NCBI GenBank assembly: GCA_903813345.2
Contig: CAIIXF020000009.1
Span: 38,183,759 to 38,247,758 of the forward strand
Direction of reading: 5' to 3'
Length of the DNA: 64,000 bases
DNA from: Owenia fusiformis
Taxonomy: Eukaryota > Annelida > Polychaeta > Sabellida > Oweniidae
Positions 3,601-45,781 of the stretch are shown piece after piece. Each line of letters starts with the position of its first letter. The first letter of the stretch is position 1. A model generated the notes under the pieces. That model was not told where the DNA came from. It ran no database searches and saw only the letters and a program-made list of their open reading frames with translations. Both the position numbers and the translations under genes were made by a program.

Positions 3601-4075
3601 GCTTGTAAGGTGTTATATAGCCATTGCTTGTAAGATGCCACAAAGGCTTTGCTTGTAAGGTGCTACTTAGGCCTTGCTTGTAAGTTGCTATACTTGCTTG
3701 TAAGTTGCTATGTAGCTGGTACTTGCAATGTACTAAATAGCCCTTGCTTACAAGGTACTTCATTAACCTTGCTTGTAAGAAGCTCACAATCCTTGCTTGT
3801 AAGAAGCTCACAATCCTTGCTTGTAAGAAGCTCACAATCCTTGCTTGTAAGAAGCTCACATTCCTTGCTTGTAAGAAGCTCACAATCCTTGCTTGTAAGA
3901 AGCTCACAATCCTTGCTTGTAAAAAGCTAAAAATCCTTGCTTGTAAGAAGCTCACAAGCCTTGCTTGTAAAAAGCTCACAATCCTTGCTTGTTAGAAGCT
4001 CACAATCCTTGCTTGTAAGGTTCGACATAGTATTTGGTTGACATGTAAGGTGCTTTGTAGTCCATGCTTGTAATC
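3601..4075. repeat. 24-bp minisatellite (CTTGCTTGTAAGAAGCTCACAA-type)
   Basis: About ten well-conserved 24-bp units (core CCTTGCTTGTAAGAAGCTCA) lie at roughly 3769-4020. They are flanked on the left by degenerate relatives (CTTGCTTGTAAGGTGCTA) from about 3601 and on the right to about 4075. Because 24 is a multiple of 3 the array is open in several frames on both strands, which produces apparent proteins such as repeated SFLQARIV. These are repeat artefacts, not genes. Confidence 0.9.
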
Positions 4076-34520: not shown

Positions 34521-34657
34521 CTCGACCTGCAGGTGACCTTGGTGATCTAGGTGACCTTGATATTCCCAGGAAGCGTGGGGAGTAGTTTGGGGAGGGAGGG
34601 GGTGGGAAATTGTCATCTGGCCCCAGACTCCCATAGGAGTTACGTCCATTGTGATTC
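34521..34657 (-). CDS. caskin: Caskin linker exon (RNSYGS and SPR-rich)
   Basis: A 137-nt exon between acceptor ATTCCTTCCAG and donor GAG|GTAGGT, entered at phase 2 and left at phase 1. Read in that frame it gives NHNGRNSYGSLGPDDN, then FPPPPSPNYSPRFLGISRS and PRSPRSPAGR. The RNSYGS is the same motif seen twice in the upstream exon at 36.2 kb, which fixes the frame; the alternative, longer open frame is out of phase and meaningless. The polyproline PPPPSP and three SPR repeats suggest SH3/WW ligands and proline-directed or basophilic kinase sites, as expected of the disordered region after the SH3 domain of Caskin. Confidence 0.85.
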
Positions 34658-35016
34658 CTGGAAGGAATATGTGTTTATGAGAAAATGAACAAATTACAGG
34701 GTGTTCAATAAGTAGAGCTTTTTTTGTTCTGTATAATTTCAAGGTTCTTCACAGATTAAAAGTAAACATACGTGATATTCAAATCACACAACTATTTTAT
34801 AAAGTTATTTTTCTATTTATTATCATTATTAGGAGCAAATTGTATTGTTAATTTAGTAAGTTCTTATTTTTACTACTTAAGGAAACATCAAAAAATGGTA
34901 AAAAGATCTGAATTGATCATAAATTTTTAAATAGATTTTATTGATATATTTTGCAATGGATGCAGAATAATTTTTAAATAATCAACTGGGCACATACTGC
35001 ATGAGTTGAAATGAAG
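34658..35016 (-). other. Intron, nothing seen
   Basis: AT-rich intron between the linker exon and the 3' edge of the splice-site minisatellite. Confidence 0.6.
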
Positions 35017-36238
35017 AATCCAAAATGATACCTGGTGTCTATGTGTAAACTATTGCTACTACTTATAATCCAAAATGATAGCTGGTGTCTATGTGTAAAC
35101 TATTGCTACTACTTAGAGAATCCAAAATGATACCTGATGTCTATGTGTAAACTATTGCTACTACTTAGATAATCCAAAATGATACCTGGTGTCTATGTGT
35201 AAACTATTGCTACTACTTAGAGAATCCAAAATGATACCTGGTGTCTATGTGTAAATTATTGCTACAACTTAGAATCCAAAATGATACCTGGTGTCTATGT
35301 ATAAACTATTGCTACTACTTAGAATCCAAAATGATACCTGGTGTCTATGTGTAAACTATTGCTACTACTTATAATCCAAAATGATAGCTGGTGTCTATGT
35401 GTAAACTATTGCTACTACTTAGAGAATCCAAAATGATACCTGGTGTCTATGTGTAAACTATTGCTACTACTTAGAGAATCCAAAATGATACCTGATGTCT
35501 ATGTGTAAACTATTGCTACTACTTAGAGAATCCAAAATGATACCTGGTGTCTATGTGTAAACTATTGCGACTACTTATAATCCAAAATGATACCTGATGT
35601 CTATGTGTAAACTATTGCTACTACTTATAATCCAAAATGATACCTGATGTCTATGTGTAAACTATTGCTACAACTTAGAGAATCCAAAATGATACCTGAT
35701 GTCTATGTGTAAACTATTGCTACTACTTAGAGAATCCAAAATGATACCTGATGTCTATGTGTAAACTATTGCTACTACTTAGAGAATCCAAAATGATACC
35801 TGATGTCTATGTGTAAACTATTGCTACTACTTAGAGAATCCAAAATGATACCTGGTGTCTATGTGTAAACTATTGCTACTACTTAGAGAATCCAAAATGA
35901 TACCTGGTGTCTATGTGTAAACTATTGCTACTACTTAGAATCCAAAATGATACCTGGTGTCTATGTGTAAACTATTGCTACTACTTAGAGAATCCAAAAT
36001 GATACCTGGTGTCTATGTGTAAATTATTGCTACAACTTAGAATCCAAAATGATACCTGGTGTCTATGTATAAACTATTGCTACTACTTAGAATCCAAAAT
36101 GATACCTGGTGTCTATGTGTAAACTATTGCTACTACTTATAATCCAAAATGATAGCTGGTGTCTATGTGTAAACTATTGCTACTACTTAGAGAATCCAAA
36201 ATGATACCTGGTGTCTATGTGTAAACTATTGCTACTGC
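35017..36238 (-). repeat. Minisatellite made of a duplicated exon-intron boundary
   Basis: Twenty-four direct units of 50 or 52 bp (plus-strand core AATCCAAAATGATACCTGGT then GTCTATGTGTAAACTATTGC). The last unit, at the right, overlaps the 3' end of the Caskin exon 36208-36415 and contains its working donor. Read on the minus strand, every unit repeats exon-like AGCAATAGTTTACACATAGA, CACCAG and the intron start GTATCATTTTGG. Twenty-one units keep CAG|GTATCA; three (at about 35073, 35381 and 36141) have CAG|CTATCA and have lost the GT. Units 5-8 and 20-23 share the same private variants in the same order, so the array grew partly by copying blocks of about five units. Confidence 0.95.
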
Positions 36239-36415
36239 TTCCATACGAGTTCCTCTCCAGTTGGCCATTATAACTGCCGTAAGAGTTCCTATCTATGAGG
36301 TGGGGGTTACTGTTGTGGTAAGGAGGGTTACGATTAAGTAGGTCGGGCACCTGTGGGGTGTTCACCTTCTTTAGTCCATAGGCACTCAACCTCTGGGGGT
36401 TGTGATTTATCACAG
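36208..36415 (-). CDS. caskin: Caskin linker exon following the SH3 domain
   Basis: A 208-nt exon entered at phase 1 from acceptor CACCTTGCAG and left at phase 2. It reads (A)VINHNPQRLSAYGLKKVN, TPQVPDLLNRNPPYHNSN, PHLIDRNSYGSYNGQLER and NSYGSSSNSLHIDT. The donor is CAG|GTATCA inside the first unit of the adjacent minisatellite. This choice is supported because the resulting phase 2 end joins the 34.5 kb exon in the frame that continues ...DT-R-NHNGRNSYGS. If the donor is skipped, the frame reads RYHFGFSK and stops. Asn/Ser-rich, disordered, with two RNSYGS motifs (R-x-S, basophilic kinase type). It follows the SH3 domain directly, as in known Caskins. Confidence 0.88.
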
Positions 36416-37445: not shown

Positions 37446-37557
37446 CTTGTTTATCTACCAGGACTACATGATTACTTGGGAAGTAACCAGATTTGGCTAA
37501 TTGTCCATCATGCATCACAAAACCTTTCCACATTCCATCTGGACACTGTTCTAGCAC
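37446..37557 (-). CDS. caskin: Caskin SH3 domain, C-terminal half
   Basis: A 112-nt exon (acceptor TGTATTTCAG, donor CAAG|GTAAAT, phase 0 to 1). It reads VLEQCPDGMWKGFVMHDGQ and LAKSGYFPSNHVVLVDKQ. VLEQxPDGxWKG and GYFPSN are the distal SH3 strands; the W and the YFP are positions that normally build the peptide-binding groove. As I recall vertebrate CASKIN1 and CASKIN2, the corresponding stretch is VLEQHPDGRWKG followed by GYFP, which is the main basis for the family name. Caskins are cytoplasmic synaptic scaffolds that bind CASK in vertebrates; whether this one does cannot be read from this exon. Confidence 0.93.
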
Positions 37558-37879: not shown

Positions 37880-37974
37880 CGTTAGGTAGTCGCCTTCTTT
37901 GAAGCATATACTATTTGGCTCATAAGGATTACTAAAATCTTTCAAGGCACGGGCATATACTGCAGAGCTCGCAT
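37880..37974 (-). CDS. caskin: Caskin SH3 domain, N-terminal half
   Basis: A 95-nt exon (acceptor TTCTTTCAG, donor ACG|GTAAGT, phase 1 to 0). It reads (D)ASSAVYARALKDFSNPYE then PNSICFKEGDYLT. ARALKDF and the FKEGDYLT turn are the first SH3 strands (ALYDY and diverging-turn positions), with the ALKDF spelling shared with vertebrate Caskin2 as I recall it. It follows the ankyrin exon in frame and joins VLEQ of the next exon, reconstituting one SH3 fold split by a 322-bp intron. Confidence 0.93.
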
Positions 37975-38454
37975 CTGAAAGAACACAAAAACATGAAGGG
38001 CAACATCTGAAAGACAAAACAACGGAAACTCCTCCAAGTCATACGAAATTAAAAGAAGTTTCATTTCAAAAGTGAATATTGAATGTTGGTCTTCTTCTGA
38101 TGTACAGTATCTGCCATCCACATTACTTGAAGTTCAAAAAAAAGGTTGGCATATAGTCTACTCGATCAAATAAAAAAAAATGTGATCATGTTTTGATGTA
38201 TTGTTTAAATTGGCACCTTTGAGAGATAATGCAAAGATCTTTGACCATCCTTTTAATATAATCAGGTGCTGATAACCTTCTATTAAAACAATAGAAACAC
38301 ATGTTATCCTTTGAGTATGAATGCAATAAAGGTCAACATATTTGACTTGTTCATAAACAAGTAGACCTCAACATGAAATTCAAGGTGAAAGATATGTTCA
38401 GCAATTATTGATAAAATGTAAATTAATTTTCTGATATAAATAGTGGTGCATTAA
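37975..38454 (-). other. Intron, nothing seen
   Basis: AT-rich intron between the SH3 exon and the foldback element. Confidence 0.6.
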
Positions 38455-39378
38455 CACCCTTGGTATACGCAGCTAACGAAAATTGACCGGTACGGGTCAA
38501 AAGCTGGACCGGTACGGGTTAACGGTTTTATTTGAATTTAAAACAGCCATAACTTGCTCAATATTGACTTCCTTGTGTCTAATTTGAAATATATGATACC
38601 TCCCGATGCTTTTTAGTACCCCAATTTTTTACAGATTTTTAAATGGACCAAAACTCTCTAAATGCGCATTTATGCTCTTTTCTCTCAAAAACGACTGTCT
38701 CATTTTCACGATAACTTTTATTTAGTACTTCTAACATATAAGATCTATTTTTCCCATCAAGGTATGATGTAAATGACATGCTATTTACATCTTGTGAGTT
38801 TCAATGACGCACGTTTGATTTTATAAAAAATGCCAAACTTTGTGACAAAGAATTTCATCCTGCTTGCAGCGAGATGACTGACCGGTTCGGGGCAATAGCA
38901 TGAACATAATTTAGGAATCTTTATACATGTGTGTTATTGCCTCGAACCGGTCCGTCTTCTCGCTGCAAGCAGGAGGAAATTCTTTGTCACAAAGTTTGGC
39001 ATTTTTTATAAAATCAAACGCGCGTCATTGAAACTCACAAGATGTTAATAGCATGTCATTTACATCATTCCTTGATGGGGAAAAATAGATCTTATATGTT
39101 AGAAGTACTAAATAAAAGTAATCGTGAAAATGAGACAGTCGTTCTCGAGAGAAAAGAGCATAAATGCGCATTTAGAGAGTTTTGGTCCGTTTAAAAATCT
39201 GTAAAAAATTGGGGTACTTAAAAGCATCGGGAGGCATCATATATTTCAAATTAGACACAAGGAAGTCAATATTGAGCAAGTTATGGCTGTTTTAAATTCA
39301 AATAAAACCGTTAACCCGTACCGGTCCAGCTTTTGACCCGTACCGGTCAATTTTCGTTAGCTGCGTATACCAAGGGTG
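38455..39378. mobile_element. 924-bp near-palindromic foldback element, TSD ATTAA
   Basis: The element begins CACCCTTGGTATACGCAGCT and ends with its complement, flanked by ATTAA on both sides (38450-38454 and 39379-39383). The left arm (38455-38900) is complementary to the right arm (38932-39378) almost throughout, leaving a 31-nt loop. The arms differ by scattered substitutions. Tandem ACCGGTACGGGT motifs lie near both ends. It has no ORF. It is a non-autonomous foldback DNA transposon; the TTAA within the duplication could point to a piggyBac- or Kolobok-like mobiliser, but the superfamily is not proved. Lying in a Caskin intron, its transcript would fold into a very long duplex. Confidence 0.93.
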
Positions 39379-39383
39379 ATTAA

Positions 39384-41084
39384 GCCTGTGAAGACATTCA
39401 CCCATATCAACTCCACCTCCTACTTCAAATGAGGTGCAAGTAAGGGGGGGGGGGGGTGTCAAGGGCTTGTACTGGCAGTACAATAAAGATTACTTCAATA
39501 ATAACCTCTAGGTGAAAGATTCTACAATATAATTCAACTATAAAATACAAGTTCAAAGGGTCTGGTGCTATCAACTTAAAGTGCTTTCATATCTCATATT
39601 ATTGGGGTACAAACTCCCTATATGCTTGTTTGTTTTATCTATTTTTGTCTTATCAGACTCTGAAATGTTGTTTTAATGACTGGACAGTGGACAGAGCTTA
39701 TCGTGGGCTATATAAAATATAAGATAAATAGTTGGCCCTAAATCAACCTTTTGGTGCAAAAGTAGATTTCTAAAATGTTACATTTTACTATAGCTAGCAT
39801 ATGATAAATAAACCACATCAACTCTTGTTGTCGATATAACAGTGTGATGAGTATCAGAATGCAAAAATAGATCAACATTGAAAGATTACATCAGGACTTC
39901 AGTCTTAGAAACAGTACCCAAAAACCTTAATCTTCTATAATTCACACAGTTCCCTAATTAGTCATTTATTCTGGGACTGTGCACAGAATGAAGAATCTGA
40001 CACTTAATAACAAACACACAGGTGGTCGGAAAATTGCTATTCTTACATCAGGATGTTTTCTTTTTATTCAGAAATGTTCTAAACTTACTTGGGTGAACCA
40101 AATATTAAGAAAGGCCAAATATAAGGTTGGAAGGCTAATTAAGCCCCCTCTCCGGCGGAAATAGGGTGATGCATTGCTATTTTTAATATTTTGTGTGTAA
40201 AACTCAATTTTGATAAAAACTGGACAATTTTAATGAAAACTGGACGAAGAATGACACACGCTCCTCATAAACCTTAGATAAACAACCATTCAGTGGAACC
40301 AAAAAGCCCTGACCATTTTCAATCCATTTATGCAGCTCATAATCAAATTGTATCTCAAATAATCCGAGAAAATTGGATGGTTCTTTTAACATAATTCCCA
40401 CCCAAGAGACTTAGCTCTATTTTATACTAACAAGAAATAAGTTAAGTTATTCATAGCAGAATGGTTTTTATTTTTTAAATTGAGTTGGTAAAGAATACTT
40501 TTGGCCATTTTGATGAATGATTTAATATGTTGATTAATTGTCTGTTTGTTTGTTTATTTGTTAGGTTTGCTTAATGATTGATTGATTGATTAATCAAAGT
40601 AAGATGTTATTCAACATTTTTCTGCAATTAATCATCATATTTCTTTCATAAACAAGTCAGTAAATTTTACCCACTCCACAGAATTGTTTTTCTCCAAAAC
40701 ACTAATTATTCCATGAAAGATCTGAATTCTGATGTTTACTGTTTTTCCAGGTGTGCAAAATCTCGTAAACCAAGGTATGAACCTTGAAAAAACTGATGAT
40801 CAAAATACTAAATTTTTCATATAAAAAAATCTCAAAATTGGAAATGGGATATCATAATGGTAGCAAGAATATACTTTGAAATGTAAAGGTTTCCAAAATA
40901 ATGCAATCTTGCAATATTTATAGAGGAATGTAGCATTGGATATGAAGATTCCAATTTGGAAGGTTAATGTATATTTTCCTTCTATGATTTATTATAGCAT
41001 TTTGGGTGAATGCACTGAGCGACCTTTGAGGTGTAAACTCTGGAAAAGTTGAAAACAGCTGACTAAGGGGGCATGTCAAACACT
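39384..41084 (-). other. Intron, nothing seen
   Basis: AT-rich intron with a poly-G run at about 39446-39456 and a short (TTGA)n stretch near 40574. No exon recognised; none is required, because the flanking ankyrin and SH3 exons join in frame. Confidence 0.6.
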
Positions 41085-43176: not shown

Positions 43177-43975
43177 TTTTTTTTTTTTTTTTTTTTTTTA
43201 TAGGTTATGTTTTATTTATCAATACTATCATTTCACAATGTCCGACAATGGGCCAAGGCCATTGGCATTAGTGGCCCATGTCAATTTTCACAAATACACA
43301 TTTATACAATTTCTAAAATAGAGTTAAGTAGGCACATAAAAATCAAGTAATTTTAGGCTGCTGAACACTCAGCATGACAATACATATAAGTTACATGTGA
43401 CATTTTACACCAAATATATAAGGTTAAACATAGTCTACAATTAAAGAAATAAAGTTGGCAGTTGTTGTGACTATAAGCTTGTTAGTTTCAATTTTATATG
43501 TTGAGCCACCATATAACAATGTATCTAGTTTCTCTTTTGCATTTAGTTTGTTATAATGGTTAATGTTGAAATTGGGTATCCCTGCAAGGTCGAGTGCTAG
43601 TTGTTCCCTGAGATCAAGTAAAAGGGGGCAAGAAAAGAATAGGTGTTGGGTTGTCTGAGATCGAAAACCGCACAGGCATTGAGGATTGACATTATTGAAT
43701 TGATGCTGGAACTTATGGTAACGAAAAATGAAATCACATCTGGTTTTATTAAGCACTATTTCAGCTTGCCTGTCTAAATTCAAGTGGACTGTGTCAATTA
43801 GGGTCTTCTTCAGAAATAAATGTTTTTTAAGATGGTATTTAAAAGTGCGCTTTATTGGAATGGTTTTGAGTTGATCAGGTAATGTGTCCCTCTCCCATTC
43901 AGATATAGAAGAAACTACAGTACCGCGTCTAGTTTTTTCAGATTGTTTCGCGGGTACAATAAAATGGGGCGTTTT
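43177..43975 (-). mobile_element. 5'-truncated LINE insertion with poly-A and 13-bp target duplication
   Basis: A minus-strand non-LTR retrotransposon copy. The element ends in a poly-A tail (T-run at about 43175-43199) and is flanked by the perfect direct repeat TGAGGAAGGTATT (43164-43176 and 43976-43988). About 800 bp of the 3' end is present: the last part of ORF2 plus about 250 bp of 3' UTR. Severe 5' truncation with an intact duplication is typical of target-primed reverse transcription. Recent, because the duplication is perfect and the remaining frame is uninterrupted. Confidence 0.93.
43424..43975 (-). pseudogene. LINE ORF2 C-terminal fragment
   Basis: About 180 residues of the C-terminal part of a reverse-transcriptase polyprotein. 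SISEWERDTLPDQLKTIP and FKYHLKKHLF correspond to the segment after the RT domain, followed by CLCGFRSQTTQHLFFSCPLL, a Cys-Cys-His-Cys zinc-knuckle-like motif common at the C-terminus of several LINE clades. The frame runs to a stop at 43424 without interruptions. The catalytic RT and endonuclease domains are absent, so it cannot act alone. The apparent start codon upstream belongs to flanking DNA beyond the insertion and should not be annotated. The clade was not assigned. Confidence 0.88.
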
Positions 43976-43988
43976 TGAGGAAGGTATT

Positions 43989-44904
43989 GACTGGTAAATG
44001 AGAAATAACATCAGACTCCCTTTAGGAGACATCTCCCTTAGGAGACAAGAGGCTTGGAAGTTTCTCCTTTAAGAGAAACCAGGAGCAAATGTTATATATC
44101 TAAATATATATAAAGTCTTCTATGACTTCCCTGTATGCCTAAACTTATGGGGAAAATAAAGGGGCAAGTGTGGCTTGATACGAGACTCACATATTAAAAT
44201 GAAACAACTCTTGAAACATCCCCACATTATTGTAAAACATAATGTTGGCCATTGGATGTATTGAAGCTATTAGCGAGGCACATCAGGCAACAGACAGTCC
44301 AAGAGGTACCTCCTAATTGATAGTTACTGAGCTATTTCACTGCAGGAACGTGGAAATGAATAATTAGATTCAATAGTATGTTCTCCATATGAATATTGTG
44401 GCATTTTGGAAAAACAATCAATTAGCACTTAACATGTCCAATTGTCCAGTTAAAGCAGTTAAATTGAAATGGTCTAAGACTGGCCAGAAATACTCATGTA
44501 AAGGTCCATCAGTAGGCAATGAGTGGTTTTCTTCATTTGTTTAGTCCCCGGTAATTTTCCTGCTTTTTTAATTTGTTTTGCGTGGTAATGATTTTAATGA
44601 ATCCCCTGTACAGCAGCTATTTTACTGTATCAATTAAATCAAGGAGTGTTTTTGAAAATATATTCCATTTCCTGGTACATACTTATTTTATTTTTTGTAT
44701 GTTTTAATGTAGGAGAATGATTTAACTTTGTTTCCTTTTAAGAATATATATGATTTAAATAAACAACGACACCAAAGATCAATGTTGAACATGATCAATC
44801 TATCCATTAAATTGACATAATAGCTTTCCTTGATCCTTGTATTTGACTTTATGTCTTTATGTATATGTATGCGTTATTAAGCAAGGAAGTAGTGAACCAA
44901 AACT
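43989..44904 (-). other. Intron, nothing seen
   Basis: AT-rich intron. Confidence 0.6.
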
Positions 44905-45672: not shown

Positions 45673-45781
45673 CTTTTAATAATTGTTTTAGTTCTTTGGC
45701 CGCCTTAGAGGTAGTGTATTTATTCACAATATCTAGTGCAGTTTGGTCGTATGAGTTAGGTTTATTTACATCTATCCCACA
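45673..45781 (-). CDS. caskin: Caskin last ankyrin repeat, C-terminal part
   Basis: A 109-nt exon (acceptor GTATTTCCAG, donor AAAG|GTAAGT, phase 0 to 1) reading [19 protein letters not shown] then [17 protein letters not shown]. GxDVNxxNxYxQTALDIV is the start of an ankyrin repeat and TTSxxAxELKQLL its closing helix; Caskins carry this same spelling at their last repeat, just before the SH3 domain. It joins the SH3 exon in frame across an intron of about 7.7 kb. The preceding half-repeat (ending LLL) and the earlier repeats are not found in the 18 kb to the right, so either a very long intron follows or this transcript starts from the 50-kb exon. Confidence 0.93.

Follow-up and report, generated by a model that had tools for sequence, protein, structure and literature searches.

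A 24-unit minisatellite across an exon-intron boundary of a Caskin gene is probably a largely neutral array with surplus splice donors

Do the many splice donors that a minisatellite has laid down behind an exon of a Caskin gene regulate how that exon is spliced, or are they by-products of repeat growth? The locus lies in a window of 64,000 nucleotides, by which we mean the whole stretch of DNA that was analysed (C9:38183759-38247758 of a 498-Mb assembly of 525 contigs). Positions below are those of the window unless a contig name precedes them, and a slash marks a splice junction. We favor, with a probability of roughly 0.72, the reading that this is a largely neutral minisatellite of the type called mirages in amphioxus, spliced mainly at the exon-proximal donor, and that the additional donors serve no function of their own.

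The gene is on the minus strand and, judged by its predicted product, is Caskin or Caskin-like. Two exons, 37880..37974 and 37446..37557, encode the first and second parts of an SH3 region. Their spliced product matches Pfam SH3_2, and its best PDB matches among 38 solved-structure sequences are Caskin-2 (1.2e-11) and Caskin-1 (4.7e-11). Downstream on the same strand, at C9:38178539-38178673, about 5.1-5.2 kb beyond the window, is a SAM_1 match that putatively belongs to the same transcript. The SH3 and SAM matches together bear out the Caskin call that had been made from the letters. A comparison of the Caskin protein with the genome gave five matches, four to its own exons and one weak match (34%) with stops. 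Further upstream is a candidate exon at 45673..45781 (minus strand), delimited by TTTCCAG and GTAAGT motifs around an open frame. By eye it looks ankyrin-like; Pfam gave no match for its open reading frame or for its 36-aa piece. All exon borders are predictions from splice motifs and open frames. Among them are the two exons that matter most here, both on the minus strand: exon X (36208..36415; 208 nt, phase 1 in and phase 2 out), which contributes its final 33 nt to the repeat as the exonic part, and exon Y (NHNGRNSYGSLGPDDNFPPPP...; 34521..34657), with the acceptor CTTCCAG/GAATC.

Other features of the window touch on this gene or lie near it. An exon-like segment at 787-960 has the acceptor TTTCCAG, the donor GTAAGTAG and a frame that reads GSNRNSLASLDSGKSGGSHYDNAR; it may be another exon of Caskin, in which case, with no exon intervening, some 33.5 kb would separate it from exon Y. 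A nested palindrome at 38448-39385, apparently within a Caskin intron, resembles a foldback element, with arms at 38448-38755/39078-39385 (308 nt, 97%) and 38748-38900/38932-39084 (153 nt, 94%). On the minus strand at 43427-44068, a 214-aa open frame has a weak zf-RVT match below the cut-off (E 0.065) and may be the terminal part of a non-LTR retrotransposon.

The array crosses the boundary between exon X and its intron. TRF reports a single array at 35015..36240 (minus strand as the gene; period 52, 24.0 copies, 95% matches), and splitting it unit by unit yields 24 repeats 50 or 52 nt long, each joining 33 nt of exon tail to the first 17 or 19 nt of the intron. The sequence-only reading had the array right, with ends that differ by 2 nt (35017-36238), and also its composition of exon-like sequence plus intron start, with an exon-like part of about 32 nt where the actual length is 33 nt. 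It was also correct that the edge unit contains the real boundary: unit 1 is the true end of exon X. Donor +1 positions run from 36207 in unit 1 to 35031 in unit 24, 1176 nt apart. The junction reads CAG/GTATCA in 21 of the 24 units and CAG/CTATCA in units 2 (36155), 17 (35387) and 23 (35081), which agrees with the earlier count of about 21 GT units and three with CTATCA. The same TTAT variant follows in each of the three CT units. The two edges are distinct: position -30 is C in unit 1 only and T in the remaining 23 units, and unit 24 alone ends in TTC, where the unrepeated intron begins (34981..35014, minus strand; the end coordinate is arbitrary). Other changes are sporadic.

Exon flanks the array on one side and unrepeated intron on the other, which is what growth from the boundary itself would produce. 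Across the 236 nt compared, units 2-6 and units 17-21 do not differ (the identity was also found as a 251-nt match at 100%), indicating that the array copied a block of itself and carried the CT variant along. Such a block duplication suggests that array length is unstable. We looked for a second haplotype of the locus in the assembly and found none; one copy of the locus was all that turned up. The intron is 1550 nt long and would be 374 nt without units 2-24.

The unit appears to be specific to this locus. A search of the 498-Mb assembly with a pattern for the unit core gave 27 matches, 24 of them in this array, and exact matches were confined to the array; the reversed control pattern gave one match, and in such a search a missing match does not show absence. 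The other three matches, each with two mismatches, are outside the window on another contig (C481:2695-2716, 15569-15590 and 25766-25787). We therefore rejected a dispersed repeat or transposon, given that the unit is found only at this locus save for those three core matches.

Which GT ends exon X was approached by frame. We tried all 113 GTs between 36415 and 34660 as donors of exon X with the acceptor of exon Y. Ten gave a stop-free product and four kept the frame of exon Y: 36390 (GAG/GTTGAG, score 1.53), 36246 (CTC/GTATGG, 3.59), 36207 (CAG/GTATCA, 4.67) and 36186 (TAA/GTAGTA, -1.81), as scored with a generic matrix. The unit 1 donor (GT at 36206..36207, minus strand) has the top score of the four and joins exon X to exon Y in frame at the predicted borders, and it is likely the donor of exon X. 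It had been proposed on the ground that it alone gives the right phase. That ground does not hold, since four of the 113 GTs do; among the repeated copies no other one preserves the frame. GTs that do not keep the frame outscore it, two within exon X (AAGGTGAAC, 7.41, at 36365, and CAGGTGCCC, 6.82, at 36350) and one in the intron (CACGTATGT, 5.93), so matrix scores do not settle donor use. By the weight matrix the donor at 36207 is the weakest of the six scored in the gene (4.67 vs 7.33-11.91), whereas by the energy of the free U1 duplex it is not the weakest (-7.2 kcal/mol, the others -6.8 to -11.6 kcal/mol); the weight matrices and the U1 5' end are generic values, not values fitted to this species. 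All 21 GT donors have a single 9-mer in common, so strength does not separate them.

Use of a distal donor would have a uniform outcome. Read-through of the first donor adds RYHFGFSK and then meets a stop (TAG at 36183..36185, minus strand), just as the sequence-only reading had translated it. Among the five donors computed, the distance past this stop is 27 nt for unit 2, which has lost its GT, 77 nt for unit 3, the first GT-bearing unit past unit 1, and 1151 nt for unit 24. Because unit 3 is already 77 nt past the stop, all 20 further GT units satisfy the 50-nt rule for mRNA decay, and decay is predicted for each. These properties could make the array a rheostat of unproductive splicing, in which identical donors compete, the choice of a distal donor leads to the RYHFGFSK ending and decay, and copy number sets the amount of productive Caskin mRNA. 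The stop 77-1151 nt before the junctions and the shared 9-mer speak for such competition, and the use of several repeat donors in human IFI6 (below) is a precedent. On the other side, no constraint on the donors is seen, the most distal donor would demand an exon of 1384 nt, and the amphioxus mirages are reported, in the available text, to be regularly spliced. We consider this mechanism unlikely.

The in-frame stop just past the donor is also compatible with a composite terminal exon. Here a weak donor that is not used soon enough would allow polyadenylation in the intron beyond the array, and the product would be a stable short Caskin that ends in RYHFGFSK after SH3; U1 bound to the array would suppress this outcome. 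A possible polyadenylation signal, AATAAA, is present at 34937..34942 (minus strand), 89 nt past the last donor, and a T-rich stretch follows about 35-60 nt beyond it. However, chance alone will produce AATAAA in AT-rich introns, and this one has it twice, the second time at 34821; we regard a terminal exon here as highly improbable.

We looked for selection on the donor copies. Column variability was compared over 48 aligned columns (-33 to +15), up to where the columns begin to vary in length. Seven of the 48 vary, and the donor 9-mer holds one of the seven where 1.3 are expected (P(<=1)=0.61); in this comparison we saw no constraint on the donor copies, whose columns vary like the rest. With only seven variable columns these tests have little power, and absence of constraint does not prove neutrality. 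We also considered whether RNA structure hides the donors and rejected it: the RNA from 35600-36260 is less structured than shuffled versions (z +1.75), and all 20 shuffles fold at least as well.

A different role for the copies would not require that they be spliced. Downstream copies might bind U1 and strengthen the definition of exon X at a weak proximal donor while remaining unspliced themselves. The authentic donor is weak by the matrix and the array is not unusually structured, and inclusion of PAH exon 11 is reportedly enhanced by U1 binding downstream of the natural donor, in the available text of PMC5933811. Nevertheless, the donor copies show no constraint, unit 2, which would be the nearest helper, is without a GT, and a single site was presumably enough for the ancestral intron. 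We find such helper sites distinctly unlikely. A control of splicing that depends on length, in which some 21 weak donors of identical sequence either recruit U1 to the benefit of the proximal site or send transcripts into decay, and allele length sets productive Caskin mRNA, comprises the part of the rheostat and of the U1 helper in which array length sets the output. We judge it rather unlikely.

The units could also be thought to encode protein. Read in the exon's own frame, the units show six distinct codon changes, five replacements and one silent change, and stops occur in 0 of 24 units; no coding constraint on the units is visible in these counts. Each unit might supply an in-frame microexon (AAG/30 nt/GT) that preserves phase and codes for SSSNSLHIDT, with alternate units spliced in. 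The 30-nt piece fits in frame between exons X and Y and the units are free of stops, but the AGs of the array score at most -1.1, whereas five acceptors of the gene reach 0.3 to 5.9 on a generic matrix. Splicing between neighbouring units would require introns of about 20 nt, and the codon changes run 5 to 1 for replacement. Repeated microexons are extremely improbable. We likewise set aside a coding role as the main reading of the array, given the immediate stop on read-through, the weak microexon acceptors and the lack of visible coding constraint.

Minisatellites that span an exon-intron boundary are already known, and the Caskin array is a further case of the mirage kind. The name mirages was given to tandem repeats over such boundaries in amphioxus Adh3, and globin genes were described as having them too. 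Many but not all mirage units have AG/GT, haplotypes differ in length, and edge units escape homogenisation (PMC3087553). Units measure 10-160 bp (PMC3087553, PMC3902484). The Caskin array and the amphioxus mirages of Adh3, BflGb6, BflGb9 and TnC, as far as these are described there, are all minisatellite-like tandem copies of an exon-intron boundary. Each Caskin unit has exon and intron sequence across the (predicted) boundary, many but not all units have the signal (21 of 24 with GT), the interior has evolved in concert (units 2-6 and 17-21), and the edge units stand apart (C at -30 in unit 1, TTC in unit 24). The Caskin array is in another gene and, as indirect signs suggest, in another lineage. 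It has 24 units, whereas BflGb6 has 6 and 3 in two haplotypes, and it copies the donor side where BflGb6 copies the acceptor side (both as given in the available text). Variation in length among haplotypes is documented for the amphioxus mirages, compared with the one locus copy found in our assembly. For the amphioxus mirages, RT-PCR suggests regular splicing, and it is noted that AG/GT could act as cryptic sites and give aberrant transcripts (PMC3087553). The TnC mirages were added later with similar duplications in PGBD5; according to the available text, those in Adh and TnC do not give rise to aberrant mRNAs, and splicing of PGBD5 is seemingly not disturbed (PMC3902484). Among the papers of the open literature that were listed, none reported such an array in Caskin.

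Repeat donors can nonetheless be used elsewhere. Turri et al. are said to have found in 1995 that a minisatellite in human IFI6 (6-16, G1P3) provides multiple splice donors, a property shared with the Caskin array. The IFI6 unit is 12 bp long and in frame, whereas in Caskin a stop precedes every distal donor and no distal unit keeps the frame. Two downstream repeat units of IFI6 are described as donors in use, giving three mRNAs (PMC4526556, available text). In human segmental duplications, variable internal tandem repeats at exon-intron boundaries are, like the Caskin array, minisatellite expansions at a boundary that alter gene structure. They may form novel introns, and 66% of the intron modifications also show a transcript that retains the repeat, according to the available text of PMC2812944; in contrast, in Caskin an existing intron has apparently just been lengthened.

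For the largely neutral reading, the sequence shows that a segment of about 52 nt over the boundary underwent tandem duplication and grew into 24 units, with the five-unit block copy as one of the steps; slippage or unequal exchange is the probable cause. The intron would have grown from about 374 to 1550 nt with the coding sequence unchanged, because whatever follows the first donor can be spliced out with the intron. The spliceosome would mainly pick the exon-proximal donor, keeping exon X at 208 nt, and use of a distal donor would be occasional splicing noise that leads to a stop after the SH3 region and to mRNA decay under the 50-nt rule. There are points against this reading. A donor that is weak by the matrix, as at 36207, is where extra U1 sites could matter. 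The IFI6 repeat donors in use (PMC4526556), the possible cryptic sites in mirages (PMC3087553) and the human transcripts that retain the repeat (PMC2812944) also count against it, as far as the available texts go. With 21 identical donors and an inevitable stop, the array offers a clean natural system in which to ask which donor is picked. If it lies outside the cephalochordates, as indirect signs suggest, mirages would be more widespread than the available texts of PMC3087553 and PMC3902484 describe. Those signs are an annelid haemoglobin-linker domain (Eryth_link_C), which has three matches above cut-off (best 38.1 bits), and the GC of 0.315-0.387 in the 14 sampled stretches, whereas amphioxus has about 0.41; the genome is thus probably not that of a cephalochordate, and an annelid would be a guess. 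COX1 gave no match, nor did the mollusc haemocyanin domain, whose negative is uninformative. The array's importance would be far greater if Caskin output proved to change with array length.

How special is an array rich in donors? We sampled 204 kb (14 arbitrarily placed 10-kb stretches with a GC of 0.315-0.387, plus the window) for arrays with a period of at least 10 and at least 4 copies. There were 21 non-redundant arrays, about 100 per Mb, some of them long satellites cut at the ends of stretches and two of them 49-bp arrays in one stretch (L018) that may be related. At this density, some arrays are expected to cross real donors. As a rough estimate that assumes 200,000 introns and 45-nt units, there would be several hundred to a thousand boundary-crossing arrays genome-wide before selection. 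In 9 of the 21 arrays, donor-like sites (score at least 4.67) on one strand number at least half the copy number, and without the window's five arrays the count is 7 of 16. The donor columns are as variable as the rest, the missing GT was propagated as the array copied itself, and donor-like sites are frequent in other sampled arrays, and a splicing rheostat is therefore unsupported. The field of tuned or cooperating donors in the sequence-only reading fares no better, given the donor columns (1 of 7 vs 1.3), the three units without GT, the 9 donor-rich arrays in 21 and the regular splicing reported for the amphioxus arrays. Two of the other repeats can be described individually. A 24-bp minisatellite at 3767-4019 in the window (10.5 copies) has donor-like sites on both strands, the best being AATGTGAGC on the minus and CTTGTAAGA on the plus strand. 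In one sampled stretch, a 96-bp satellite of about 51 copies (L007:5083-10000) runs to the end of the stretch and has 97 donor-like sites scoring at least 4.67 on the plus strand.
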